Positions 2,401 to 17,745 of a DNA stretch of 21,979 nt are shown in pieces. Under the pieces are notes generated by a model, which saw only the letters and a list, made by a program, of their open reading frames with translations, ran no database searches and had not been told where the DNA came from. The DNA lies in the IMG/VR virus record IMGVR_UViG_3300035698_024313, positions 1 through 21,979 of that record; one strand, given 5' to 3'. A program made the position numbers and the translations under genes. How positions within the stretch are numbered: position 1 is the first letter of the stretch; each line of letters begins with the position of its first letter. Source of the stretch: a virus.

Positions 2401-3195
2401 TTAATAATTTCTTATCATCGAACTAACTTGTTTTTCAGTGTAATCATCTACTAGTAATAATCTTCCAAATTTTTGTACATCTTTCCAAGTTCTCAATGGT
2501 CTAAAAAAATCTGATTCTGTATGAACTGCCTTACCTTTTCTTTTCTCCCAAATTTCCTTATATTCAGGAGCTCTATTTATGTAAAAATCGCATCTTCGTT
2601 CCCAATCTTTTATGGAGATAGCTTTTCCATAATGCTTTATTAACCCTGTATATAACATTTTTGTATAAACAGTTACTTCAGGATTCCTCGAAAACTTCTT
2701 TGTAAATTTTATATTAGGTGTATTTTTAAAAACTGATACTATATTTCTAAACTCAGGACCGCAGAAACGTCTCATCGAAGGAAGATTGCCAGTATACTTT
2801 CGGTCTTTATCTTCTTCAGTAATATAGAAATCAAATAACCTAGAAATAACTACGTCACAATCTTCTGATAAATCAGAGAAGTTATAAAACAATCTTTCAT
2901 CTGCGTCTAAATAAACAAACCAATCGGGATTATCTTTTCTAGCCTCATCCATTAATGCTTGTCTTTGTTGCATTTCTACTATTGCTAACTCTGTTTTGCC
3001 GTCCCATTTTTTTACACCAATAACTGATTTAACAGCAGGATGATTTTTACATATTTCAACAGTATTATCTTCTGAAGCATCATCGAAAACGTAAATTCCC
3101 CCCGTACAATACTCAGCCATAGCATCTAAATGCTCTTTTATTATTAAAGATTCATTTCTTATTCTAGTTAACCCAGCAATTTTATATTTCCTCAT
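2401..3195 (-). CDS. Family 2 glycosyltransferase (GT-A fold)
   Basis: The 264-residue protein begins with a classic GT2 Rossmann-like segment (residues 4-60: IAGLTRIRNES, then YVFDDASEDNT). The metal-binding D-x-D is in WFVYLDADERLF (D97-A-D99). The C-terminal part (about 150-260) is basic and aromatic and resembles the tail of GT2 enzymes of the WaaE/KdtX type. It is inverting by family rule and needs a divalent metal. Spacing to the upstream GT4 is 4 bases, so the two are very likely co-translated from one transcript. Substrate unknown. Confidence 0.85.
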   Translation of the reverse strand: MRKYKIAGLTRIRNESLIIKEHLDAMAEYCTGGIYVFDDASEDNTVEICKNHPAVKSVIGVKKWDGKTELAIVEMQQRQALMDEARKDNPDWFVYLDADERLFYNFSDLSEDCDVVISRLFDFYITEEDKDRKYTGNLPSMRRFCGPEFRNIVSVFKNTPNIKFTKKFSRNPEVTVYTKMLYTGLIKHYGKAISIKDWERRCDFYINRAPEYKEIWEKRKGKAVHTESDFFRPLRTWKDVQKFGRLLLVDDYTEKQVSSMIRNY

Positions 3196-3199
3196 ACCT

Positions 3200-4150
3200 T
3201 TATTTTATAACCTCTTTATAAATTTCTTCAAATCTGTCTGCTATTTTTTCTATATTGTGGTTTTTTAAAATTAATTCCCTATTGTCTAAACCCATTTTTA
3301 AGTAATCTTTAGAAAATATTTTCTTTATTTCGCTAGTTAATCTCTTTCCGTCCCATTGTTCTTTATTTGCTCGACTTGAGAAATTACTTAACTTAATTTT
3401 CTCATAAGATTTTGGAGTAATGACTCCATCATAACCATTATAATCACCTACAATAACAGGTTTTCCCATTGACATAATTTCTAATATACTTCGACCTAAG
3501 CCGATACCTATATCACATTCTTTTATTAACTTCTCTGTTTCAAAAATCATTTTACCATTTGTTCCTATAACTTCTATCTCAGCATCTAAATTTTTTACTG
3601 CTTCCCAAACTTCTTTTCCTTCCCATTCATTATGAAAGTAATTACTAGCTACTAATATTTTTAATTTCTTTCTTATTTTTTTAGGCGAGAAATTAAATCT
3701 ATTAATATTAATCGGATTTCTAATAATCTCTTTCTTATTTTCAGGGATATTTTTATATTGGAAATTTACTACTTCTTCTGATACTCCAATATATTTAGAT
3801 ATATCAACATCTTTAGGATATTTCTCTGGCTCAGGTAAAACTCCGTGACTAACAAATATAACAGGTATAGTAGGAAGTATTCTGCTTACCTCAGATAAAA
3901 TATAATTATGTTGTCCGTGAATTATATCAAAATTAGTATTATCTTTTAAAAGAGCAAAATCATTATCGGGATTATCTAATATTTTAAACCCTGCCTCTAA
4001 GAACTTACTGCCTTGGTGTGTAAAACTAGTAATAGAAGAACAGATAGATACTTTATGTCCTCTTTTTATAAGTTCTTTACCTAAAGTATATAAATATGTA
4101 TCTGAACCCGAATACCAAGTCAACCTATTGTTTGTCATTAATATCCTCAT
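3200..4150 (-). CDS. GT4 family glycosyltransferase (GT-B fold)
   Basis: The 316-residue protein starts MRILMTNNRLTWYSGSD, the glycine-containing N-terminal loop of GT4 enzymes. DIIHGQHN (75-82) and VSHGVLPEPEKY (100-111) fit the acceptor half. VSEEVVN and IRNPININRF at about 123-153 lead into the donor half. The donor site is GLGRSILEIMSMGKPVI (217-233), where the second Glu (E224) of the usual E-x7-E is present and the first is replaced by Gly. It is short for the family (usually 350-400). It starts 23 bases after the gene ending at 4174. Confidence 0.85.
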   Translation of the reverse strand: MRILMTNNRLTWYSGSDTYLYTLGKELIKRGHKVSICSSITSFTHQGSKFLEAGFKILDNPDNDFALLKDNTNFDIIHGQHNYILSEVSRILPTIPVIFVSHGVLPEPEKYPKDVDISKYIGVSEEVVNFQYKNIPENKKEIIRNPININRFNFSPKKIRKKLKILVASNYFHNEWEGKEVWEAVKNLDAEIEVIGTNGKMIFETEKLIKECDIGIGLGRSILEIMSMGKPVIVGDYNGYDGVITPKSYEKIKLSNFSSRANKEQWDGKRLTSEIKKIFSKDYLKMGLDNRELILKNHNIEKIADRFEEIYKEVIK

Positions 4151-5264: not shown

Positions 5265-6269
5265 TTAAACTTGACCAATATCCTTAATAACAGATTGCCA
5301 TTGAGGAATACGTAGTTCGAGAACACAATTCCAAACAACAGACTGCGTTTCAGCAAGAGTTAAACCACGATAAACTGGGAGTTTATACATTGGTTCAGCT
5401 TCAGCTAAAGCAATTTCACCCATAGTCAAAATAAAGGCATCATCATACGGAGTGTTAACACTATTCGTAGTATTGATGAAATTATTCATTACAATATCAA
5501 TCGGACCAGCAAAACTCATATAACGAGCAATGTTATAACCAAAGGTCATACCATTTCCTGGGTCATTATAAACAACTACACTTGCCCAAGCAGTCGCTAA
5601 ATCTCGGATATCCCTAGCTGACACAAACATTGTATCAGGCATACCTCCTTGGTCAATAATAGCCTGAATACCTGTATCAATATAAGAAGTTGCTAATTTG
5701 TGATGAGTGGAATCAACCATATTCGCCGAAGCGTATGTATTGATAATATCATACAAACCATCGAATTCTGCAGGAGTGGTACTAGCATCTCCATAAAAAC
5801 TCTTTTTTTCAACATCCTGAATAATCTTACGCATTCCGTGCATAAGATGCATATCCATTAAGTCGAAATAATCACTAGCACCCCATTGAGCTTTATCACA
5901 AACCTCTACTTTAGAAGCAAAAGTTTTGATTTGGGCTGAATAACGAGTGATAGTTGCTTCATTCTCTGGGGGAGTTCCACATTCTGCTGTGGCAGTATCA
6001 GTGCTACCTAAGGCAGTAATCATATCCCATTCGTGGGTAATACCATTAGCCTTACGTTTAGATACCTTATCAAGAAACGGAGTTTTTCTGTCCGTAATAT
6101 CAGCTAAACGAGCATCTAAATGCTCACGTTGAGCATAAGTTGAAGTCGTTGTAGTTTCAACGGTTTTTTCTAAGATTTTAGCAGCGTCAGCTAAACCTAC
6201 TTTAATGTCGCTGGATTTTTCTAAAACTTTGACCGCTTCCAACAGACCTTGTGCTACACTTTTATACAT
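5265..6269 (-). CDS. Major capsid protein, HK97 fold, SU10-like family
   Basis: The 334-residue protein is the main shell subunit. An N-terminal helix-rich arm (1-50) precedes TYAQREHLDARLADITDRKTPFL and a block ending ANGITHEWDM. This 'TPFL...K..A....FEW' pattern is typical of SU10-type (DUF5309-like) major capsid proteins. FYGDAST...EFDGLYDII (about 160-180) and GMPDTMFVSARDIRDLA (about 210-225) match the conserved core. It directly follows the protease/scaffold gene (19 bases), the usual maturation cassette, and a strong terminator follows it. Base use is less AT-rich than the sugar-enzyme genes, as expected for a highly expressed gene. Confidence 0.93.
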   Translation of the reverse strand: MYKSVAQGLLEAVKVLEKSSDIKVGLADAAKILEKTVETTTTSTYAQREHLDARLADITDRKTPFLDKVSKRKANGITHEWDMITALGSTDTATAECGTPPENEATITRYSAQIKTFASKVEVCDKAQWGASDYFDLMDMHLMHGMRKIIQDVEKKSFYGDASTTPAEFDGLYDIINTYASANMVDSTHHKLATSYIDTGIQAIIDQGGMPDTMFVSARDIRDLATAWASVVVYNDPGNGMTFGYNIARYMSFAGPIDIVMNNFINTTNSVNTPYDDAFILTMGEIALAEAEPMYKLPVYRGLTLAETQSVVWNCVLELRIPQWQSVIKDIGQV

Positions 6270-6288: not shown

Positions 6289-7785
6289 TTAAGATTTCTC
6301 AGCCCATTCTCTGCGGACTTTACCACATTCAATGAAGGCTTTTTCTGGGTCACTGGCAAATTTCTTTTTTACTTCTGCCAATTCCTCATCTACAGTTTTA
6401 AATTCTCCTTCCTCTTTCTTGACACCTTCATCATCTTTATCAATCGCTACACTTTTAATAGTTTTACGAGTGACATTTCTTTTTGAAAGCAACTTTTCGA
6501 TTTTCTCTTGTCGTTCAAGAACTGTCTTCAATAAATCTACAGAATTATCTCCTTTAGACTTATCTTTTGTTTCATCCTTTTTTTCTTCTTTTACTTCTTC
6601 CTTTTTATTTTTCTTGAACAAATCACTGAAAAATTCCTTTAACCCTTTTTGAACAGCATCACTAGAAATAGCGATAACATCCTCTCTGGTTAATGATTTT
6701 TCTTCAGTCTTTTCTTCTTCATCCTCTTCATCTTCTTTTTTTTCATCCTCTTTTTCCTCTTCTTTTTCGTCTTCTTTTTCATCCTCTTTCTCTTCTCCAT
6801 TTTTTTCGTCTTCCTTTTCCTCTTCTTCCTCATCTTCTTCATCTTCTTCAGATGAGTCGGACTCTTTTGATTCCTCTTCGTCTTCTTCTTTCTCTTCATC
6901 TTTTTCATCCTCTTCATCCTTTTCATCTTCCTTTTTTTCTTCGTCTTCGTTATCTTGTTTCTCTGATTCGTCTTTAGCTTCTTCCTCGTCTAGTTCAGAA
7001 GCATCTTTTTTTGCTTCTTTGGACTCAGATTTGGCGGCAGCTTTTTTAGCTTCCTCAGATTCAAGCGAAGATTTCTTTTTGTTTATTGACATAGAATCTT
7101 CTTTAATTATTAAATTAAAATTAGTTAATATTTTTTTTAAATTGTCCTCTCCTAAATATTCAAAAGACTCTGTTAAAAACACAGCCATTTGGTCTTTTGA
7201 CATACCTTTAAAATCTAGCGTGTTCATTCTCTCTGCTTTAGAAATTGACTTCGAAATAGCCCCTACCCAAGTCTTAGGATTAGCAGGAGTTGAAGTAACA
7301 GCAATATGGTCTAATTCAATTTCTTTGTAAACTCTCATAAATGTCTCTTTTTCCTTATCCCACTCTAAAGTGTAATCTTTAACAAAACCGCCAATAGAAA
7401 GACCTAATTCTTTCTTTTTGACGGTTAATGCTAACCAAAGGTCGTTAGCCTTAGAGGTTTCGTCTAATCTAGCAGACATTAATAGATTACTTTTTTTATC
7501 TACCGACAACTTGGTTACATCACCTAATTCTGATTGCCAAGACTTGTCGTGCTCGGCGTTTAAGCCAATAACGTGGTCTTTTAAACTATCTGCCATTGAT
7601 TTAATAGCACTGGGTGCCATCTTATCTCCGTGTAAATCAACATCTGTTGAAGATGCAGACCCCTCAATAAATCTCTCTTTTACTTCACCTTTATCTGTCA
7701 TTGTTACCTGCTCATAACATTTCATTATAGGCATAGCAAAAGTAAATCGAGTTTCTTCAGATTGATTACTTTTCTTAACTAGCAT
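6289..7785 (-). CDS. Prohead protease fused to acidic scaffold-like domain
   Basis: Residues 1-180 are a caudovirus prohead protease (peptidase S78, herpes-assemblin fold). RFIEGSASSTDVDLHGD is at 38-54, His79 in NAEHD, the likely nucleophile Ser130 in LGLSIGGF, and H160 in ELDHIAVTSTPANP, giving a plausible Ser-His-His set. Residues about 240-365 are an almost pure Glu/Asp/Lys tract. Residues 365-498 are helical with heptad-like stretches, resembling a scaffold. The protease would cleave the scaffold and capsid arm inside the prohead. The family is usually about 200 residues, so more than half is the added tail. An internal ATG (M232, MSINKKKSS) could yield the scaffold part alone. The start is the ATG in AAATTTATG. 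Confidence 0.88.
   Translation of the reverse strand: MLVKKSNQSEETRFTFAMPIMKCYEQVTMTDKGEVKERFIEGSASSTDVDLHGDKMAPSAIKSMADSLKDHVIGLNAEHDKSWQSELGDVTKLSVDKKSNLLMSARLDETSKANDLWLALTVKKKELGLSIGGFVKDYTLEWDKEKETFMRVYKEIELDHIAVTSTPANPKTWVGAISKSISKAERMNTLDFKGMSKDQMAVFLTESFEYLGEDNLKKILTNFNLIIKEDSMSINKKKSSLESEEAKKAAAKSESKEAKKDASELDEEEAKDESEKQDNEDEEKKEDEKDEEDEKDEEKEEDEEESKESDSSEEDEEDEEEEEKEDEKNGEEKEDEKEDEKEEEKEDEKKEDEEDEEEKTEEKSLTREDVIAISSDAVQKGLKEFFSDLFKKNKKEEVKEEKKDETKDKSKGDNSVDLLKTVLERQEKIEKLLSKRNVTRKTIKSVAIDKDDEGVKKEEGEFKTVDEELAEVKKKFASDPEKAFIECGKVRREWAEKS
6700..7030. repeat. Purine/pyrimidine-skewed low-complexity tract
   Basis: About 330 bases inside the protease/scaffold gene are, by eye, more than 90% pyrimidine on the plus strand, so purine on the coding strand. 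They are built of GAA, GAT/GAC and AAA codons. The tract encodes the Glu/Asp/Lys run. Repeats such as CTTCTTCATC recur imperfectly. It creates long spurious frames on the other strand and in other phases and could vary in length by slippage. Confidence 0.8.
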
Positions 7786-8340: not shown

Positions 8341-8844
8341 TTATTTTTTTAACGCTTCAACACGCAAAGCATATTCAGGAACTCTACCTACCGCTGTTCC
8401 TTCCCCTAAATGAATTACTTTAAAACCATTTTTTTCTAAAATACCTTTTATCGTTTTCTGACTATATCCGAATTTATGTAGTTGCTCATAAGAATAATAA
8501 AAAGGGTCTTGTTTTTGAAGATTAAAGTTTTTTCCATAAATAAAATTTAAAATATGTTCCAATTTACCTGTTTTTAAATAAATTAAATTTATCACAGCTT
8601 CTATATCAGGACATTCTATAACTAACTTACCGTTAACTTTTAATTTTTTTCTCCAATTATTAAGAGTTTCCAATGGATTTTCTAAATGCTCAAACATATG
8701 AAAAGAAATTATCTCGTCTATACTGTTATCAGGGAAAGGTAATTTTTGACAATCACAAATTAAATCCGCAGTAGGTACTTTTCTTATATCTATGTTTGTA
8801 TATCCTGGCATTTTTTTGCTTCCACAACCTAAATGTAATTTCAT
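8341..8844 (-). CDS. SAM-dependent methyltransferase, class I
   Basis: The 167-residue protein starts with the SAM-binding loop MKLHLGCGSKKMPGYTNIDI (1-20), with the glycines and acidic D19. D31 and LPFPDNSIDEIISFHMFEHL (35-54) follow, which is the motif of the Methyltransf_11 type. LKVNGKLVIECPD (68-80) is the following strand. This short version with GYTNID is common in polysaccharide gene clusters, where such enzymes methylate sugars. It is flanked by a second methyltransferase-like gene and a zinc-ribbon gene, 15 and 4 bases away. A sugar O-methylation role is inferred from context; the acceptor is unknown. Confidence 0.85.
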   Translation of the reverse strand: MKLHLGCGSKKMPGYTNIDIRKVPTADLICDCQKLPFPDNSIDEIISFHMFEHLENPLETLNNWRKKLKVNGKLVIECPDIEAVINLIYLKTGKLEHILNFIYGKNFNLQKQDPFYYSYEQLHKFGYSQKTIKGILEKNGFKVIHLGEGTAVGRVPEYALRVEALKK

Positions 8845-8859
8845 ATTTTTAATATTAAT

Positions 8860-9357
8860 TTATATTTTCTGAAAGAATTTTAATCTATTCCTACCTAAAA
8901 TATATTTAAAGTGTTTATAATCAATATCTTTTTCTCCTATCTCTATTCCCCAATCGTGGACAACAACAATATCTCCTTTTTTTAATGATGGGGAGAATAA
9001 CTTAAATTCTTTTCTTTTATCTCCTCCATCACAAAATAAAATAGTCCTGCCTTCCTTTTTAAGTATTGCTTTAATATCTCCCCTCTTCTTAAAAACATCA
9101 CATAGATAAAAATTTGTATCAAAATCAAAGTATTTTTTAATATCAGAATTTTTATAAGGCTTAATATCAAAAGTGTAAAACTCTGCTCCTTTTGCTTTAC
9201 ATAACAAATGTACATAAAGAGCAAATCCACCACTCCAAGTACCTATTTCTAAAAATCTCTTAAACTTATAATTTCTAAAGAGAATTTCCCAAGCGAAAAA
9301 CTCATCTTTATTTTGAGCAAACTCTTCTCCGAAAAAAGTTAAATGTTTATACTTCAT
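8860..9357 (-). CDS. SAM methyltransferase-like protein, Methyltransf_24/CmcI type
   Basis: The 165-residue protein carries FLEIGTWSGGFALY (35-48), a SAM-binding glycine loop. FYTFDIKPY (60-68) has the acidic residue that would hold the ribose, and ILFCDGGDKRKEF and GDIVVVHDWG (128-137) complete the pattern. These match the family that includes CmcI-type and macrocin-type O-methyltransferases, where the Asp/His residues bind metal. It is small for the family (usually 200-250), lacking an N-terminal extension. It follows the giant glycosyltransferase by 11 bases, so methylation of its product is a reasonable guess. Confidence 0.78.
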   Translation of the reverse strand: MKYKHLTFFGEEFAQNKDEFFAWEILFRNYKFKRFLEIGTWSGGFALYVHLLCKAKGAEFYTFDIKPYKNSDIKKYFDFDTNFYLCDVFKKRGDIKAILKKEGRTILFCDGGDKRKEFKLFSPSLKKGDIVVVHDWGIEIGEKDIDYKHFKYILGRNRLKFFQKI

Positions 9358-9368
9358 AGTAGTTATAT

Positions 9369-12086
9369 TTATTTATTTAGACCGAGTTTTTTTATCCACG
9401 AATGAGTAGACTTTTTATAATGGACCATAGCGTTAGCTACTGAGCCTAAATCAATAGTTCCTATTTGAATACCTGCATCCCAAAGTCTCTTTTGAACAAT
9501 ATTCGAAGTCATTGCTATAGCTAAGAACATAATATCGTGCTCTTTAGCAGCTTGAACAACTGAGTCATACCAAGTATCAATAGTGTTATATGCTTGTTCA
9601 GTTGGAACAGGTATAAAGGTTTTAATTGGTAATGGTATATCTCTTAAATGCTCACCACCGACAAAACATACTTTATAACCCTTTAATTGTTCAAGGAAAG
9701 AATCAAAAATCTCTCTTTCAAATACATATAAGTAATGGAGAGCTATGGGAGTATAAAATGCTTTATTAGTATAATATTTATTAGTAACATCTATTAATGA
9801 TTGAAGATGTTTAGGCGGTAAAAATAATCCTTCTTGTGCTTTTTCTTCTACAGGCATATAAGCAGAATTACCCATTAAAAAATCCTTATCATTTATAAGA
9901 AAACACTCTTTTAATTCTTCTTTAACACCTGGGCAATCCCATTGAGTTGTTTGTTTTCCTTTATAAATACCTTCCATTAACATTATCTCACCATCACCAA
10001 ATCTTGAATAAGCAAATCTTTTACCTAATCTTTTCTTTATACTCTCAAGAGTAGCTATAGAATTAAATCCTGTATTTTTTTGAGTTAACACTCTACCTGT
10101 AAAAGAATAATACTCAGGATATTTAGAAATATTAACTTTATTATTATCAAGCATATCTAAAAGTTCAACTTCAACATCTGTACAAAACGCTTTTTTAATA
10201 TTAGGATTATTTTTTTGTAATGTTGTCCAGCCTCTTAATACTCCTATATTTTCAGGAATTTTATTTTCTATTTTATTTCTTTTAATTATAACTCCTGAAC
10301 CACCTACATAATTTGAATAAAATAAAGTATGAACTTTTGGGTCTCTTTTTAAATTTTGCATCCAAGAATCAAAAGTAGAATACTTTGAATTCATAAATTT
10401 ATGTTTGGCTTGAATAACATCTACTAATCTATAAGTTGCAGGGTGCAGTAACTTTATTAACCAATCTCTAGGAACTATTGTATCATTATCGACTTTTGCT
10501 ATAAACTCTTCGTTAGGTGTTTTCCCAAGAAAGAAATTCATAGCTCCCGCAACACCTACATTATTTGCATTAAATGTAATTTCAAATTCTTTACGCTTCT
10601 CTTTTAATATCGCTGTTCCTTTACTAGCTAACCATTCTGCTGTTCCGTCAATAGATGCATTATCAAAAATAAAAATCTTCCCAGTAGTAGATTCTGCTAA
10701 TTTTCTCAAAGATTTTTTAGTATAATCTAATCTATTAAAAGTGGTAAATAATACAGGAGTAACACTAGCAAGCCAAGTAACATATTGTTTCTGACCTTCG
10801 GCTCTTAATTTAGAGATATTGCCTTCTTTCTTTCCCGAAGCTTCTCCTAAATGATAAACAAATGAACCTTTTGACCAAATAAATTTATAACCTAATCTCT
10901 TTGCTTTTACAATCCAAGCGTGCTCACCACCATAAAAAGGAACTTCTAAAGGAAAATCAATATTTAAATCTGCCCTTAAGAGAATACAAAATCCTGATAA
11001 TAAATCTACTTCTTGGTATTTTTCTATATTTTGTTTTGCTAATTGTGGTGTTCCTAAATTTCCCTGTTCTCCGCCTACTCTATCGCCACTAGGACCAACC
11101 CCAGCCACAGAATCATCTACAAAACCACCCATCATTTCTTCGAGCCAACCCTCAGTAACAAAAGCATCACTATTTAATAGACAAACATACTTACAGGTTG
11201 AGTTTTTTACTGCGTCATTCCAAACTTTACTTAATGATTCTTTTTTTCGATAGTTATCTATAATAGTTAATTTATAAGGAAAAGTAGTAAATTTTTTAAC
11301 GTATTCAATACATTTTTCTTCTACGTCTAATAAATTAAATCTAATAATAACAATATCTACCATATTTTCTTTCGTTGCTGTTACCTTACCCTTTGAGTAT
11401 TCTTTACTTAGTAAAGAAGAGGGAACTACCGATGAACGAAAAGAATTTTCTGATAATTTTTGCTTATTTTCTTTATTTTTTTTATTTGGATTATGCTTAT
11501 CTTTAACAATCTCTAAAGTTTCTTTAATATTATCTTTTCGGCAACTAATTCCATTTTCATTATAGTATGCAGTAAAAAGAACTCGATTAATATATAAACC
11601 ATATTTTCCTTCTCCTGACATTGTTAACCATAAATCCCAATCTTGAAATCTCTTTAATGACTCATCAAACCCTAATCTTGGAAAATCATTAGTTTTTATT
11701 AAGCTCATTGTTGAGATATAATTCGATAAAATTAATGTTCTAGGATTCCAAACAGCTCCTTTTACAATCCCAGTGAGATTACCTTTTCGAAGATAGTCAC
11801 AATAAATAAATGAAGCTTCAGATTTTCGTAACTTTTGTATAAATGTTTCAAAGATTCTTGGGTCTAGTTCAATATCATCATCACAAAAAAATAAATATTC
11901 TCCTTGTGCTTTTTCTCTACCTCGATTTCTTGCCCAAGGTGCACCTTTACCTTCTTCGTCTCTTATAAGAATTACTTCAAAAGAAGTATATGTTTGTTTT
12001 TCTATTGACGCTAAGCAAAAAGGAGTACCTTCTTTTTGTCTAGTTGGTATAATAACTGATATTAAACCTTCTTTTAAATTATCCAT
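9369..12086 (-). CDS. Four-domain glycosyltransferase: three GT-A plus one GT-D
   Basis: This 905-residue protein joins four catalytic-looking domains. GT-A 1 (about 6-200) starts ISVIIPTRQKEGTPF and has DDD at 69-71. GT-A 2 (about 243-430) has NSD at 305-307. GT-A 3 (about 440-660) has VLFTTFNRLDYTKKSL, then FDNASIDGT and DND at 533-535. The last domain (about 670-905) has YSRFGDGEIMLMEG (RFGDGE at 695-700) and later VCFVGGEHL, the signature of the GT-D fold (DUF1792, CAZy GT101-like) first seen in streptococcal adhesin glycosylation. It probably adds several sugars in sequence to one acceptor. A linker of Lys/Asn (200-230) separates domains 1 and 2. The start is the ATG at 12086; an in-frame TTG two codons upstream is possible but less likely. 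Confidence 0.88.
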   Translation of the reverse strand: MDNLKEGLISVIIPTRQKEGTPFCLASIEKQTYTSFEVILIRDEEGKGAPWARNRGREKAQGEYLFFCDDDIELDPRIFETFIQKLRKSEASFIYCDYLRKGNLTGIVKGAVWNPRTLILSNYISTMSLIKTNDFPRLGFDESLKRFQDWDLWLTMSGEGKYGLYINRVLFTAYYNENGISCRKDNIKETLEIVKDKHNPNKKNKENKQKLSENSFRSSVVPSSLLSKEYSKGKVTATKENMVDIVIIRFNLLDVEEKCIEYVKKFTTFPYKLTIIDNYRKKESLSKVWNDAVKNSTCKYVCLLNSDAFVTEGWLEEMMGGFVDDSVAGVGPSGDRVGGEQGNLGTPQLAKQNIEKYQEVDLLSGFCILLRADLNIDFPLEVPFYGGEHAWIVKAKRLGYKFIWSKGSFVYHLGEASGKKEGNISKLRAEGQKQYVTWLASVTPVLFTTFNRLDYTKKSLRKLAESTTGKIFIFDNASIDGTAEWLASKGTAILKEKRKEFEITFNANNVGVAGAMNFFLGKTPNEEFIAKVDNDTIVPRDWLIKLLHPATYRLVDVIQAKHKFMNSKYSTFDSWMQNLKRDPKVHTLFYSNYVGGSGVIIKRNKIENKIPENIGVLRGWTTLQKNNPNIKKAFCTDVEVELLDMLDNNKVNISKYPEYYSFTGRVLTQKNTGFNSIATLESIKKRLGKRFAYSRFGDGEIMLMEGIYKGKQTTQWDCPGVKEELKECFLINDKDFLMGNSAYMPVEEKAQEGLFLPPKHLQSLIDVTNKYYTNKAFYTPIALHYLYVFEREIFDSFLEQLKGYKVCFVGGEHLRDIPLPIKTFIPVPTEQAYNTIDTWYDSVVQAAKEHDIMFLAIAMTSNIVQKRLWDAGIQIGTIDLGSVANAMVHYKKSTHSWIKKLGLNK

Positions 12087-12097
12087 AAGCAATTAAA

Positions 12098-12541
12098 TTA
12101 GTTTGTTATATAAATATACTTAGCATCTAAATGGTCGATTTCGTGTTGAAACATCTCAGCTCTTCGCCCCTTAACGTGCTCATTACAAGTTATGAGTCTA
12201 CCTTCTTCTAATGTTGAATACACTAATTCACAAACATTCCATCTCTGAACAGTTATCATAGGTTCATTAGGAAAAGAAACACTTCCTTCGAAACTATCTA
12301 TAGTAGTTTTTGTGTGATTAGTTATTTTAGGGTTAATGATTATTTCTCCATTTTCGGTAACAAAAAATCTTAAAGGGTCTTTTTTTTCTATTTGGGGATG
12401 AGCTAAAGATAAAATCTGTTTTAAATTACCAGTTGGGTTTTTACAAAAGTCAATCATAGCTACAGCCTCATTTTTTACTCTAACTAAATCTTCTCCTGTT
12501 ACTAAACGGCTTATTTTTTTGTGTGGGTCTATAATATTCAT
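12098..12541 (-). CDS. def: Peptide deformylase-like protein with altered motif 2
   Basis: The 147-residue protein has the deformylase zinc motif HEIDH (133-137, in MFQHEIDHLDA). SLAHPQI (45-51) stands in for GxGLAAPQ, and FEGSVSF (84-90) stands where EGCLS is expected. The metal-binding Cys of motif 2 is therefore Ser87, and the glycines of motif 1 are missing. Deformylases remove the formyl group from new N-terminal methionines, and phage versions exist. With one of three metal ligands changed, activity is doubtful. The start is the ATG at 12541: it lies 4 bases after the upstream stop and has GGAG eight bases before, one of the few good ribosome sites here. The longer upstream frame overlaps the previous gene. 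Confidence 0.78.
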   Translation of the reverse strand: MNIIDPHKKISRLVTGEDLVRVKNEAVAMIDFCKNPTGNLKQILSLAHPQIEKKDPLRFFVTENGEIIINPKITNHTKTTIDSFEGSVSFPNEPMITVQRWNVCELVYSTLEEGRLITCNEHVKGRRAEMFQHEIDHLDAKYIYITN

Positions 12542-12545
12542 ATAG

Positions 12546-13037
12546 TTAACTCCAATTAATTTTACTCCCTCCTCCTGGAACATTTTTTTTTACATATTCT
12601 TCATCTTCTTTTGTTACTTTAGCTCCGCCCCTTGAGTTAGCAACATCTAAAATAGATGATTTCTTTTTATCTGTAGATTCTAAAGCATCTACTGCTTTTA
12701 AAATAGCTGAATTTGGTTTTTTTACTACTGTTGGTGTAACTACTTTTTCAGCATTAACTACAGATGATGGTACTTTTTGAAGAGGAGTTTCATCAGTTGT
12801 AATAATCGCACTAATTTTTATCTTTGCTCCACAATTAAAGCATTGTAAAACCCCTGTCTCTAAATCAATACTCATTCGTTCATCGCATTTTGAACAAAAC
12901 AATACTGGACTCTTAGCCCTCTCTATTAATTCCATTATTGCTGTTAAAAACTTATTTGTATTATCTTCAGAAATTTCAAAATCTTTTGAGGTATCAATAA
13001 TTCTTTCTTTTATTGTCTTTTTATTTTTTTTTAACAT
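12546..13037 (-). CDS. Zinc-ribbon protein with disordered tail, 163 residues
   Basis: A helical, charged N-terminal part (1-42) precedes a zinc-ribbon with Cys pairs C48/C51 and C66/C69. A Pro/Thr/Val/Lys-rich low-complexity tail (about 80-163) ends GGGSKINWS. The start is the ATG at 13037, which sits 4 bases after the upstream stop in the AAATTTATG context. A longer frame to 13088 would overlap the upstream gene. Function unknown; the ribbon suggests nucleic-acid or protein binding. It is part of the tightly packed operon with the deformylase 4 bases downstream. Confidence 0.68.
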   Translation of the reverse strand: MLKKNKKTIKERIIDTSKDFEISEDNTNKFLTAIMELIERAKSPVLFCSKCDERMSIDLETGVLQCFNCGAKIKISAIITTDETPLQKVPSSVVNAEKVVTPTVVKKPNSAILKAVDALESTDKKKSSILDVANSRGGAKVTKEDEEYVKKNVPGGGSKINWS

Positions 13038-14198: not shown

Positions 14199-14948
14199 TT
14201 ATTTTTTAACTTTAAATATCCATTTTTTTGAATAGTAATACCAATTATCTGTTTCTTTAGAATATCTACCATCACTCATAGATTCGTAATGATATAATTC
14301 TGATTTACTAGCATACCAAATTACTTTTCCTTCTTTTTTGTATCTATTACATAAGTCTATATCTTCCCAACCTAACCAATAATTTTCATCGAAGCCATCT
14401 ATCTGTAAAAATTCGTCTTTATTTACTAACATACAAGCTCCAGTCACCGCCGAACACTCTATATCTTCTCGAGCTTTTAAGTAATTCCTAGGTTTATTAA
14501 AATACTTATGATAAGGGTATTGAAAATTGTCAAATTCAACCCCAGCGTGCTGTATAGTGCCTTTACCTGGAATTATGAGCTTTGCCCCTGTAACCGCCGC
14601 AGAATGGGCTGTATGGCACTCTACGAGCTCCTTTAACCACCCCTTTAAAGGTAATGTATCATTATTAAGAAAACACAGTAATTCACCACTAGCTAACTTA
14701 GCTCCTTGATTATTAGCTTTAGAGAAACCCATATTCTTTTTATTCTTTACATATAAACCACTGACATTCTCAGGCTTAGTTTTTTTAAAAAAACTCTTTA
14801 TTAATGACTCTGAATAATCAGTTGAATTGTTATCTATAATTATAATCTCGTATGGATAACTAGTGTTAGAAAATAAATAACCTAACATTTGAAGTGTAAA
14901 TTCAACTTTATTATAAATTGGAACAATGATTGAAGTTAGCTTTGGCAT
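14199..14948 (-). CDS. Family 2 glycosyltransferase, rhamnosyltransferase-like
   Basis: The 249-residue GT-A enzyme has TSIIVPIYNKVEFTLQML (5-22), IIIIDNNSTD (35-44), NMGFSKANNQGA (72-83), the metal-binding FLNNDTLP (NND at 95-97) and the catalytic-base region GWEDIDLC (193-200). This is the pattern of WbbL/GT2 rhamnosyl- and related transferases. The start lies 1 base after the GT4 stop, so translation is coupled. A segment around 14541-14640 is 53% GC, far above the surrounding DNA, encoding residues about 103-136. That hints at a patch of different ancestry. Confidence 0.87.
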   Translation of the reverse strand: MPKLTSIIVPIYNKVEFTLQMLGYLFSNTSYPYEIIIIDNNSTDYSESLIKSFFKKTKPENVSGLYVKNKKNMGFSKANNQGAKLASGELLCFLNNDTLPLKGWLKELVECHTAHSAAVTGAKLIIPGKGTIQHAGVEFDNFQYPYHKYFNKPRNYLKAREDIECSAVTGACMLVNKDEFLQIDGFDENYWLGWEDIDLCNRYKKEGKVIWYASKSELYHYESMSDGRYSKETDNWYYYSKKWIFKVKK

Positions 14949-14949
14949 A

Positions 14950-16140
14950 TTATTGTCTTATTAAAGCTTCATAATTTTTTGACACTACTTCCTTTATAAT
15001 ATTATCTAATTTCTTTGCTTGATTTTCGGGGGTAAACTGACTAACAAAGGTTTTTCCTGAAATAGCTTTACTATTAAGGACTTTTCTATCTCCATAAATC
15101 TTTAGTAAATTAGAAGCAATATTAGAACCACTAACAACTGCTTGACTAGTGCCATCAGCGTGATGAAAAGAAACCTCTGGACTCATTAAATAACCCATAC
15201 CATTTAAAGTATCAGGACAAGCAGAACAATCTGTAGTTAGGACAGGGACACCACAAGCCATACTTTCGTGAAATATCATCCCAAACCCTTCTCCCATAGT
15301 AGGTAAACAGAAAATATCACCTAAGTTATAAATCTCTCTTAAGGTTTTATCTGATAAAGAACCATCACCGTTTTTTTCTTTAGGCAAAACTACATAATCA
15401 TTAGCTTTATAATAATCAATCAAATACTGGAGTTCGTGTCCTTCACTTGCTCCTTCTGGTGTTTTAGTATTGTGTGTTGCTCCTAATAATAATAATACAT
15501 TAGGAATAGTCTTTTTTAAAATACTAATAGCTTGTATTAAGGCAGGTAAATTTTTTCTTGTCTGATTTCTAGCAACAGTAGTAACTACAAAATTATTTTC
15601 ACAATTAAACTCTTTTCTTAATTTAACTTTATCTTCCTTAAAAAATACTTTTGGGTCGGTAGTAGGGAAAAATACTTCCCCTTTTATACTAGGTAATATT
15701 TTCTCTATCTCTTTTTTAGCAAAATCACTATGGTATAAATTATAGTCAACCCATTTTAAAGGTTCTTTACACCCAAAACCTAGTGGAGCACCATCTAAAA
15801 CACCCCAATGTATCCATTTTTGTTTTCTTGGATAAGCCATTGCAAAAGCAATTTTAGGAAGCATATAATAATCACCAAGAGTTAGAATTATATCAGGCTT
15901 AAAATCCTGAATAGCATATTCAAGCATTTCTCTAGCCCAATAACTATCTAACTTATGAAAATTCCCAGGATAAACCTCTATATTTGGGTCTTTTGGCATA
16001 CCGTTAAAACCTAAAGCAACTTGTCTTATGTCATAACCCAATTTTTTTAGTTCGGGTATCAAATCCCTAATCTCTCTCCCAAAACCACTGGGCTTTTGAT
16101 AATAATCTCCGTAAAGTAAGAGTTTTGTTTTATTACTCAT
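14950..16140 (-). CDS. GT4 family glycosyltransferase (GT-B fold)
   Basis: The 396-residue protein starts MSNKTKLLLYGDYYQKPSGFG, with the Gly-rich loop at 17-21. PDIILTLGDYY (82-92) and LYHSDFAKKEI precede the donor half, which begins VVTTVARNQTRKNLPALI (185-202). GEGFGMIFHESMACGVPVL (283-301) carries the E-x7-E pair E284/E292 that binds the nucleotide-sugar. All key family residues are present, so it is probably active. The start at 16140 gives 4-base spacing; an upstream ATG would overlap the zinc-ribbon gene. It probably works in the same pathway as the GT2 that follows 1 base later. Confidence 0.87.
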   Translation of the reverse strand: MSNKTKLLLYGDYYQKPSGFGREIRDLIPELKKLGYDIRQVALGFNGMPKDPNIEVYPGNFHKLDSYWAREMLEYAIQDFKPDIILTLGDYYMLPKIAFAMAYPRKQKWIHWGVLDGAPLGFGCKEPLKWVDYNLYHSDFAKKEIEKILPSIKGEVFFPTTDPKVFFKEDKVKLRKEFNCENNFVVTTVARNQTRKNLPALIQAISILKKTIPNVLLLLGATHNTKTPEGASEGHELQYLIDYYKANDYVVLPKEKNGDGSLSDKTLREIYNLGDIFCLPTMGEGFGMIFHESMACGVPVLTTDCSACPDTLNGMGYLMSPEVSFHHADGTSQAVVSGSNIASNLLKIYGDRKVLNSKAISGKTFVSQFTPENQAKKLDNIIKEVVSKNYEALIRQ

Positions 16141-16144
16141 ATTT

Positions 16145-16390
16145 TTAAACATTAGTATTTTTACCTGTTTTCATTTTATGTTGATAACCTGTTGCTGTTC
16201 TTTTTTTATCACTACAATCCCTTCGAACAAAATCTTTTATTTCTCTAATTAATGCTTTGTTATTTCTGCTCTTCTCACTTATTTTTCTCCGCCTCTTTTT
16301 TTTCTTCTTCTTTCCGAGATTACATAACGGGCAGTATGGCGTTGTTTCATTATTATAAGAGCAACCACATTTTAGACAAATAACTATCAT
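16145..16390 (-). CDS. Zinc-ribbon protein with Lys/Arg tract, 81 residues
   Basis: Cys pairs C5/C8 and C20/C23 make a short zinc-ribbon (CLKCGC, CPLC). A run of ten Lys/Arg residues at 27-36 follows, then a basic tail. Strong positive charge suggests binding to DNA or RNA. It is packed between a 93-residue helical protein (7 bases) and the GT4 (4 bases). Function unknown. Confidence 0.65.
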   Translation of the reverse strand: MIVICLKCGCSYNNETTPYCPLCNLGKKKKKKRRRKISEKSRNNKALIREIKDFVRRDCSDKKRTATGYQHKMKTGKNTNV

Positions 16391-17004: not shown

Positions 17005-17745
17005 TTATTTTTTAACTTTAATAAAGTCTTCTCTCATTCTTGTTATATCAAATAAAGAAGAAGCAACAGATTTTGGATTTTCTAAATCCACCGAAGTCCA
17101 AGCAACATTAAGGGCTCTTTCTACATACATATAGTCTAAATAAGCATAACCGTTTATTCCCCAGTCTTCTCCCCAACTATTTTTTATAATAAATTTACAT
17201 AAATTATCATCATAAGCTCCTAATAAGATAGCGTGCAAACCATTACTCTTTGAATTATCCTTATAAACAACAACACCATCATCAGGTTTATAAAAATTAT
17301 CATAGACTTCTATACCAATAACAGCAAAACCATTAGCTACAATCGAATATTTTAATTCTTCGATTGATTTAACACTCGTATACGACTCGATTTTATAAGG
17401 AACACCAGTAGAGTCTTTTACTCCTCTGTCTTGGAGCATTTTCATAGCTGTTCTTATATTAGTTCCTTTCTGATTAGGCATTCCATCGACTTCTTTTAAT
17501 TTGCTATAAAAGTCTATCCCTGAAAAAGTAACTAATTTATTAGACTCTATCATTTCTTGTTCTTCTTTCATTGCTACAGTTGAATACCCTACACAAGCAG
17601 GACTATTGCCTTGATTTAAAACAGGAATATTCATATCAAACCAATTAATTGACTTTGGTAATTTTTTTGGAATAATATAACTAGCTAACATTAAATCTCT
17701 ACTATCTTGAGGGTCTTTAACACACCCTAATGTATATCCGTTCAT
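17005..17745 (-). CDS. Papain-family (C1A) cysteine protease
   Basis: The 246-residue protein has every C1A landmark. These are Q45 (oxyanion hole) in LNQGNSPACVGYS with nucleophile C51, H171 in NGLHAILLGAYDD, and N189 in IIKNSWGEDWG. There is no signal peptide and no clear inhibitory propeptide, so it would be made active in the cytoplasm or packed into the particle. Its ATG overlaps the TGA of the thioredoxin gene by 4 bases (ATGA), so the two are translationally coupled. C1A proteases are uncommon in phages. Roles could be processing of virion proteins or attack on host proteins; neither is shown by sequence. Confidence 0.9.
   Translation of the reverse strand: MNGYTLGCVKDPQDSRDLMLASYIIPKKLPKSINWFDMNIPVLNQGNSPACVGYSTVAMKEEQEMIESNKLVTFSGIDFYSKLKEVDGMPNQKGTNIRTAMKMLQDRGVKDSTGVPYKIESYTSVKSIEELKYSIVANGFAVIGIEVYDNFYKPDDGVVVYKDNSKSNGLHAILLGAYDDNLCKFIIKNSWGEDWGINGYAYLDYMYVERALNVAWTSVDLENPKSVASSLFDITRMREDFIKVKK

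Follow-up and report, generated by a model that had tools for sequence, protein, structure and literature searches.

Introduction

In dGT1 of Streptococcus parasanguinis, an N-terminal GT-D domain transfers Glc first and a C-terminal GT-A domain (CgT) then adds GlcNAc (PMC5063993). GtfD/GtfE of Lactobacillus reuteri, encoded in a SecA2/Y2 cluster, join a GT4 N-terminus to a DUF1792 C-terminus (PMC6291802). In viruses, the three glycosyltransferase (GT) domains of A111/114R of the chlorovirus PBCV-1 share a single chain and serve the capsid glycan; four GT domains are predicted for Tupanvirus R496 (PMC9614988). According to PMC12363180 (citing Freeman 2023), mycobacteriophages use GTs of their own to glycosylate the capsid and the tail tube. 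Few phage isolates are known to glycosylate their virions, and GT-D has been studied mainly in Gram-positive bacterial adhesins.

Here we describe a 905-aa protein with three GT-A domains followed by a GT-D domain, encoded in an IMG/VR virus record, a metagenomic contig of 21,979 bases with its genes on the minus strand (the whole stretch of DNA analysed, hereafter the window). As in dGT1, GT-D and GT-A lie on one chain, for which we propose the addition of successive sugars to one glycan, and the GT-D profile matches 4pfx/4phr; unlike the phage protein, dGT1 is bacterial, has only two domains, with GT-D first and GT-A second, and acts on a serine-rich adhesin. GtfD/GtfE are likewise fused GTs that end in a GT-D, but differ in their GT4 partner, in having two domains only and in their SecA2/Y2 cluster. 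PBCV-1 A111/114R and A064R are likewise soluble viral proteins with several transferase domains that build a capsid glycan stepwise, together with methyltransferases (PMC9614988); the virus infects eukaryotic algae, the chain has three domains, GT-D is not reported, and they are likened here by description. Tupanvirus R496 also has four predicted GT domains in one viral protein, a likeness in domain count, and belongs to a giant virus of amoebae. Che8 gp110 and Corndog gp38 are phage-encoded GTs that glycosylate virion proteins; they are likened here by description, not sequence, and the passages on them in PMC12363180 mention neither GT-D nor a multi-domain layout.

Results

Four glycosyltransferase domains on one chain

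The protein and its domains are as follows.

9372..12086, minus strand: 905-aa four-domain glycosyltransferase; D1 GT-A, D2 GT-A, D3 GT-A, D4 GT-D (basis: open reading frame, Pfam, homologue in contig L003)
11472..12086, minus strand: domain 1 (D1), residues about 1-205; GT2 family, GT-A fold; DDD 69-71, QDWD 148-151 (Pfam PF00535)
10767..11381, minus strand: domain 2 (D2), residues about 236-440; GT2 family GT-A; NSD 305-307, GGEHA (Pfam)
10071..10766, minus strand: domain 3 (D3), residues about 441-672; GT2-like; DND 533-535 (Pfam PF00535, best stretch 446-560)
9372..10070, minus strand: domain 4 (D4), residues about 673-905; GT-D (DUF1792, PF08759; GT101); RFGDGE 695-700, TIDLGS

The frame runs on the minus strand from an ATG at 12086 to a stop codon at 9369-9371; an in-frame TTG lies two codons 5' of the ATG, and a start there would give 907 aa. 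A first-pass annotation, made from the sequence alone, had read three GT-A domains with DDD, NSD and DND sites and then a GT-D domain with RFGDGE in this one chain. Its motifs (D69-D70-D71, N305-S306-D307, D533-N534-D535 and R695-F-G-D-G-E700) and coordinates were right, and Pfam agrees, with three Glycos_transf_2 (PF00535) stretches (whole protein E 2.8e-34) and four such stretches in the L003 homologue. Its assignment of the C-terminus to GT-D held as well: PF08759 matched residues 694-894 of the whole protein with 28.1 bits, above the gathering score of 27 (E 2.1e-6), and the GT-D region alone with 33.4 bits (E 5.3e-8; 32.6 bits for the L003 homologue). Compared with solved structures, a profile of 17 phage GT-Ds matched 4pfx/4phr (E 4.6e-11, positions 12-229 of 240), which we take to be the GT-D part of dGT1 (PDB title GalT1), and 5v4a (E 1.5e-8), with no other significant E-value. 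Besides RFGDGE, the GT-D has a conserved D-x-GS motif, and conservation suggests the putative roles of its residues.

The homologue L003:1916-4630, from an independent 17.4-kb IMG/VR contig, also has 905 aa and the same domain order; it is 57% identical to the window protein and syntenic with it, with neighbours of the same kind. Between the two, dN/dS (NG86) was 0.21 for D1, 0.24 for D2, 0.53 for D3 and 0.38 for D4, and all four domains are under purifying selection in this comparison, in which dS is near saturation. The fusion in L003, together with a dN/dS below 1 in each domain, indicates that all four domains are constrained as parts of a single gene. The highest 19-residue Kyte-Doolittle mean in the protein is 1.26, and it is thus without a membrane anchor.

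Among 50,697 annotated phage genomes, no record covered most of the 905-aa protein, and PLSDB plasmids gave partial matches only (≤24% of the query). The GT-D part of the window had no PHROG match, nor had the other GT-D proteins tested against PHROGs, save for a weak match of L003 to a family of unknown function (E 0.04). These searches bear out the first-pass remark that no described phage enzyme of this layout was known.

A recurring three-domain core with a fourth domain at either end

Scans with the GT-D and with the D2-D3-D4 part recovered a GT2-GT2-GT-D core in the window and in seven other viral contigs, L003, L051, L069, L071, L072, L074 and L075. L051 and L070 are one contig, and L050/L073 matches L051 as a partial, nearly identical copy. 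The core domains are each 35-69% identical to those of the window. Trees of D2-D3 and of D4 share, with high support, one main split that sets the window, L003, L069 and L051 against L071, L072, L074 and L075, while branching within the two groups is less sure; the shared split fits a core inherited as one unit.

D1 is an optional domain, fused N-terminally in the window. L003 also has it N-terminally, the 906-aa, four-domain protein of L075 has it C-terminally (D2-D3-D4-D1), and five of the eight core contigs lack it. A clade of the D1s of the window, L003 and L075, named before the D1 tree was made, was rejected in an AU test (p-AU 0.006). In the D1 tree, the D1s of the window and L003 group with those of a 620-622-aa protein of sister phages and with a relative from L010 (support 93/96). 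Because the tree test rejects a single origin, D1 was probably fused at least twice, independently at opposite ends; the evidence for this is good, though not final because the L075 D1 branch is long.

Relatives of the individual domains occur in other arrangements. GT-A and GT-D are joined in one protein in viral contigs L052 and L056, and GT-D is a separate gene within GT/methyltransferase clusters in L021, L026 and L057-L062; the stand-alone GT-D of L021 had no tblastn match in the annotated phage collection. In L021, L023 and L026, relatives of the D1 type, D2/D3-like relatives and GT-D-like relatives lie near each other as single genes (in L023, D1-, D3- and D2-like genes close together). 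Genes of nucleotide-sugar type were found in L021 (UDP-GlcNAc 2-epimerase), L069 (epimerase), and L071 and L072 (cytidylyltransferase).

The only close bacterial relative over D2-D3 (49% identity) is L064:3093-6242, a 1050-aa protein of a bacterial MAG that combines a GT, a methyltransferase and D2-D3 and adjoins an ABC-2 permease and Wzm/Wzt-type export genes. No GT-D remnant was seen past the L064 stop; a PF08759 search of the L064 genome gave no match, and neither did the controls. The sampled genomes of this phylum, among those listed, are mostly about 1 Mb or less.

Site residues and predicted structure

In an alignment of the eight core relatives, unchanged residues include N305, D307, N534, D535, R695, G697, D698, G699 and E700. 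D71 and D149 are invariant in an alignment of ten D1 relatives, and D149, in QDWD, is the likely catalytic acid of D1. D2 is kept in the eight viral core proteins at 43-69% identity, with its N-x-D site and an invariant E388 in GGE. In D3, W620 is invariant across the eight core proteins, and the position expected for the catalytic base holds T, G or K (WT, WG, WK), with no invariant acid in the eight sequences. From these residues, D3 may be a retaining enzyme, may use another residue or may be non-catalytic, and since it has no evident catalytic base, four activities are not to be assumed. We regard it as a serious if somewhat doubtful alternative that only some of the domains are catalytic, such that D1, D2 and the GT-D would transfer sugars while D3, a degenerate GT-A, would hold the acceptor or act as a spacer between them. 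The lack of the expected acid points that way, as do NND in place of DND in L075 and a dN/dS for D3 of about 0.53, the highest of the four domains; against it, DND is kept in the other seven core proteins and D644 in all eight, and a site without a base does not equal lost activity, as in retaining GT-A enzymes that lack a canonical base.

Structure prediction upheld the first-pass reading of D1 as a GT-A domain, while D2 and D3 were poorly modelled and D4, predicted alone from an alignment of four sequences, reached a mean pLDDT of 47. MAFFT had put single-domain D2, D3 and D4 fragments onto D1, and those rows were left out before prediction. The full-length AF2 model is reliable for D1 only, with block means of about 80-96 over residues 1-110 and 63-92 beyond them. 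In VIA-align the D1 model gave Z 20.2 to 2z86 (chondroitin polymerase, 202 residues) and Z 17.3 to CgT 5hea, and D1 is well predicted as a GT-A fold. A VIA search with the whole model listed only D1-type matches; with a model reliable at D1 only, the absence of GT-D from that list is uninformative.

An exchangeable slot among head genes

The genes around the four-domain GT are as follows.

8860..9357, minus strand: methyltransferase-like gene (PF13578), directly downstream, 11 bases past the GT stop (Pfam, at cut-off score)
8341..8844, minus strand: second methyltransferase (PF08241; Pfam)
12098..12583, minus strand: peptide deformylase (PF01327), directly upstream of the GT (Pfam; synteny with L004 and L007)
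6289-7785, minus strand: head maturation protease-like gene, downstream of the GT (PHROGs)
5265-6269, minus strand: major capsid protein, downstream of the GT (PHROGs)
1294-2382, 2401-3195 and 3200-4150, minus strand: three more GT genes, GT4-like, GT2-like and GT4-like (Pfam)
14199-14948 and 14950-16152, minus strand: two more GT genes, GT2 and GT4 (Pfam)

With the five additional GT genes, 22 kb hold nine GT domains. The PF13578 gene has a possible part in glycan decoration. The window also encodes portal and head morphogenesis genes, and capsid, portal or connector genes lie beside the core in the six of eight core contigs compared on this point, the window, L003, L051, L069, L071 and L074. 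Two side observations concern the head genes: the protease-like protein has a long Glu/Lys/Asp-rich low-complexity stretch, also present in relatives, and a peptidase-like gene (17005-17745; phrog_16701, E 8e-28) lies among them.

The capsid proteins of L003 and of the sister phages L004 and L007 are 83-85% identical to that of the window. In L004 and L007 the slot between the peptide deformylase and the zinc-ribbon/protease genes holds another GT/methyltransferase set: besides a GT-A and a methyltransferase protein, it has a GT-D-like enzyme encoded on its own (PF22882, 92 bits) and a fusion of GT-A, D1 and methyltransferase. A constant capsid with exchanged glycan genes is the pattern of a variable (surface) trait. 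The phage peptide deformylase, which by sequence similarity has a counterpart at this position in both L004 and L007, bounds the exchangeable slot on one side. Proteins resembling polysaccharide deacetylases occur inside phage GT cassettes (L023:8828-9343 and L007:3887-4975, the latter after a methyltransferase domain; Pfam reported no deacetylase in the L007 protein).

A search of genome_contigs with a capsid profile found no relative. Elsewhere the profile matched Bacteroides and Bacillus phages, but weakly and distantly, and among 380 genomes from the phylum to which the L064 MAG belongs it had a single match, weak and partial. A Shine-Dalgarno-like motif precedes only 5 of 30 window genes, and the sequence upstream of the genes is rich in A/T, like that of hosts without Shine-Dalgarno use.

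Discussion

We are evenly divided on the full reading of the protein as a soluble, multi-domain Leloir-type GT of a tailed phage that assembles a short oligosaccharide, with a virion protein as the most likely acceptor. In the proposed mechanism, the three GT-A domains and the GT-D would add sugars in turn to one growing short glycan in the cytosol of the infected cell; two to four sugars would be placed on one cytosolic acceptor and then methylated, and adjacent GT and methyltransferase genes would start or finish the chain. The acceptor would be a capsid, decoration or neck protein, so that the mature particle carries the glycan. A soluble enzyme adding two to four sugars is proposed from the site residues of the domains and the absence of a membrane segment, and a virion acceptor from gene position, cassette exchange at a constant capsid, and precedents. 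What each domain does and in which order, which sugars are added, and that the virion is the acceptor are all inferred.

Stepwise building of a tri- or tetrasaccharide, as the first-pass annotation had put it, is plausible by analogy with the described enzymes. It also placed the work of GT-D after that of GT-A enzymes on a shared glycan, which is incorrect for dGT1, where GT-D acts first (PMC5063993), and the order of domains along the chain can therefore not be read as an order of addition. The recurrence of GT-D, alone or fused to GT-A, in other phages was out of reach of an annotation made from the one sequence. The window order is GT-A, GT-A, GT-A, GT-D and not the dGT1-type order of an N-terminal GT-D and one GT-A. 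No serine-rich repeat adhesin or accessory Sec genes were recognised among the listed open reading frames of the window, itself a fragment.

Two points weigh against a virion acceptor: core genes may be accessory genes that sit among the head genes because of when these are expressed, and L064, beside Wzm/Wzt-type genes, shows that the family has a host-surface-polysaccharide side. The latter keeps alive an unlikely alternative, in which the four-domain GT would alter a host surface glycan or a lipid-linked precursor, for example for superinfection exclusion or to free progeny from receptors. In its favour, the one bacterial relative that is close lies beside export genes, and PHROGs file GT families under moron and host takeover; yet a GtrA flippase was found neither in the window nor in 12 related viral records, the GT proteins of the window have no membrane segment (highest 19-residue hydropathy mean 1.52), and many core copies lie among head genes. 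Glycosylation of modified bases in phage DNA is a far more remote reading: T4-type DNA glucosylation is a well-known role of phage GTs, but thymidylate synthase and dCMP hydroxymethylase families had no match above cut-off in the window and 13 related records (up to 178 kb, some maybe incomplete), and an oligosaccharide fits better with the presence of methyltransferases and several tandem GTs. For DNA glycosylation as for GtrA-type O-antigen conversion, the supporting genes were not found. That the fusion is an artefact of assembly or gene calling, as a single metagenomic contig might suggest, is practically ruled out by independent contigs, namely the 57% identical, syntenic 905-aa homologue with the same layout and place in L003, the four-domain protein of L075 and the three-domain cores elsewhere.

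Returning to synthesis of an oligosaccharide on the virion, we tentatively suggest, while thinking it rather less probable than the proposal for the single protein, that tailed phages hold a family of assembly-line glycan synthases, in which GT domains are added at either end of the GT2-GT2-GT-D core, the cassette is exchanged between head genes, and domain content sets the virion oligosaccharide. A fixed three-domain core with a fourth domain at either end suggests a compact phage machine for a short sugar chain, most likely on the phage's own particles. Three elements are already known singly: viral GTs with several domains, fusions of GT-D with GT-A, and virion glycosylation by phages. That phages combine them, that they have the three-domain core and that D1 is added to it at one end or the other appears not to have been described in the sources searched; the open-licence literature, which lacks most subscription journals, described no phage GT-D and no phage protein with four GTs.

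These findings bring GT-D into phages. If the proposal is right, a fixed core with a movable fourth domain would be a small soluble system in which the sequence of a glycan could be related to domain order. It would also show how the exchange of a single gene can change the particle surface of a phage, and would offer compact multi-step enzymes for glycobiology.

Two further GT-D-bearing contigs deserve mention. L053:3992-6808, flanked by head-tail adaptor genes and tail genes, encodes a 939-aa protein. Its N-terminal GT-D-type region is followed by further domains, one of them matching GT2, and the protein also matches TPR weakly. In L052, a 506-aa Ser/Pro-rich repeat protein (SPSESPSESPS...; L052:246-1763) is encoded close upstream of GT, methyltransferase-like and GT-A+GT-D genes, an arrangement that recalls serine-rich repeat adhesin glycosylation loci.
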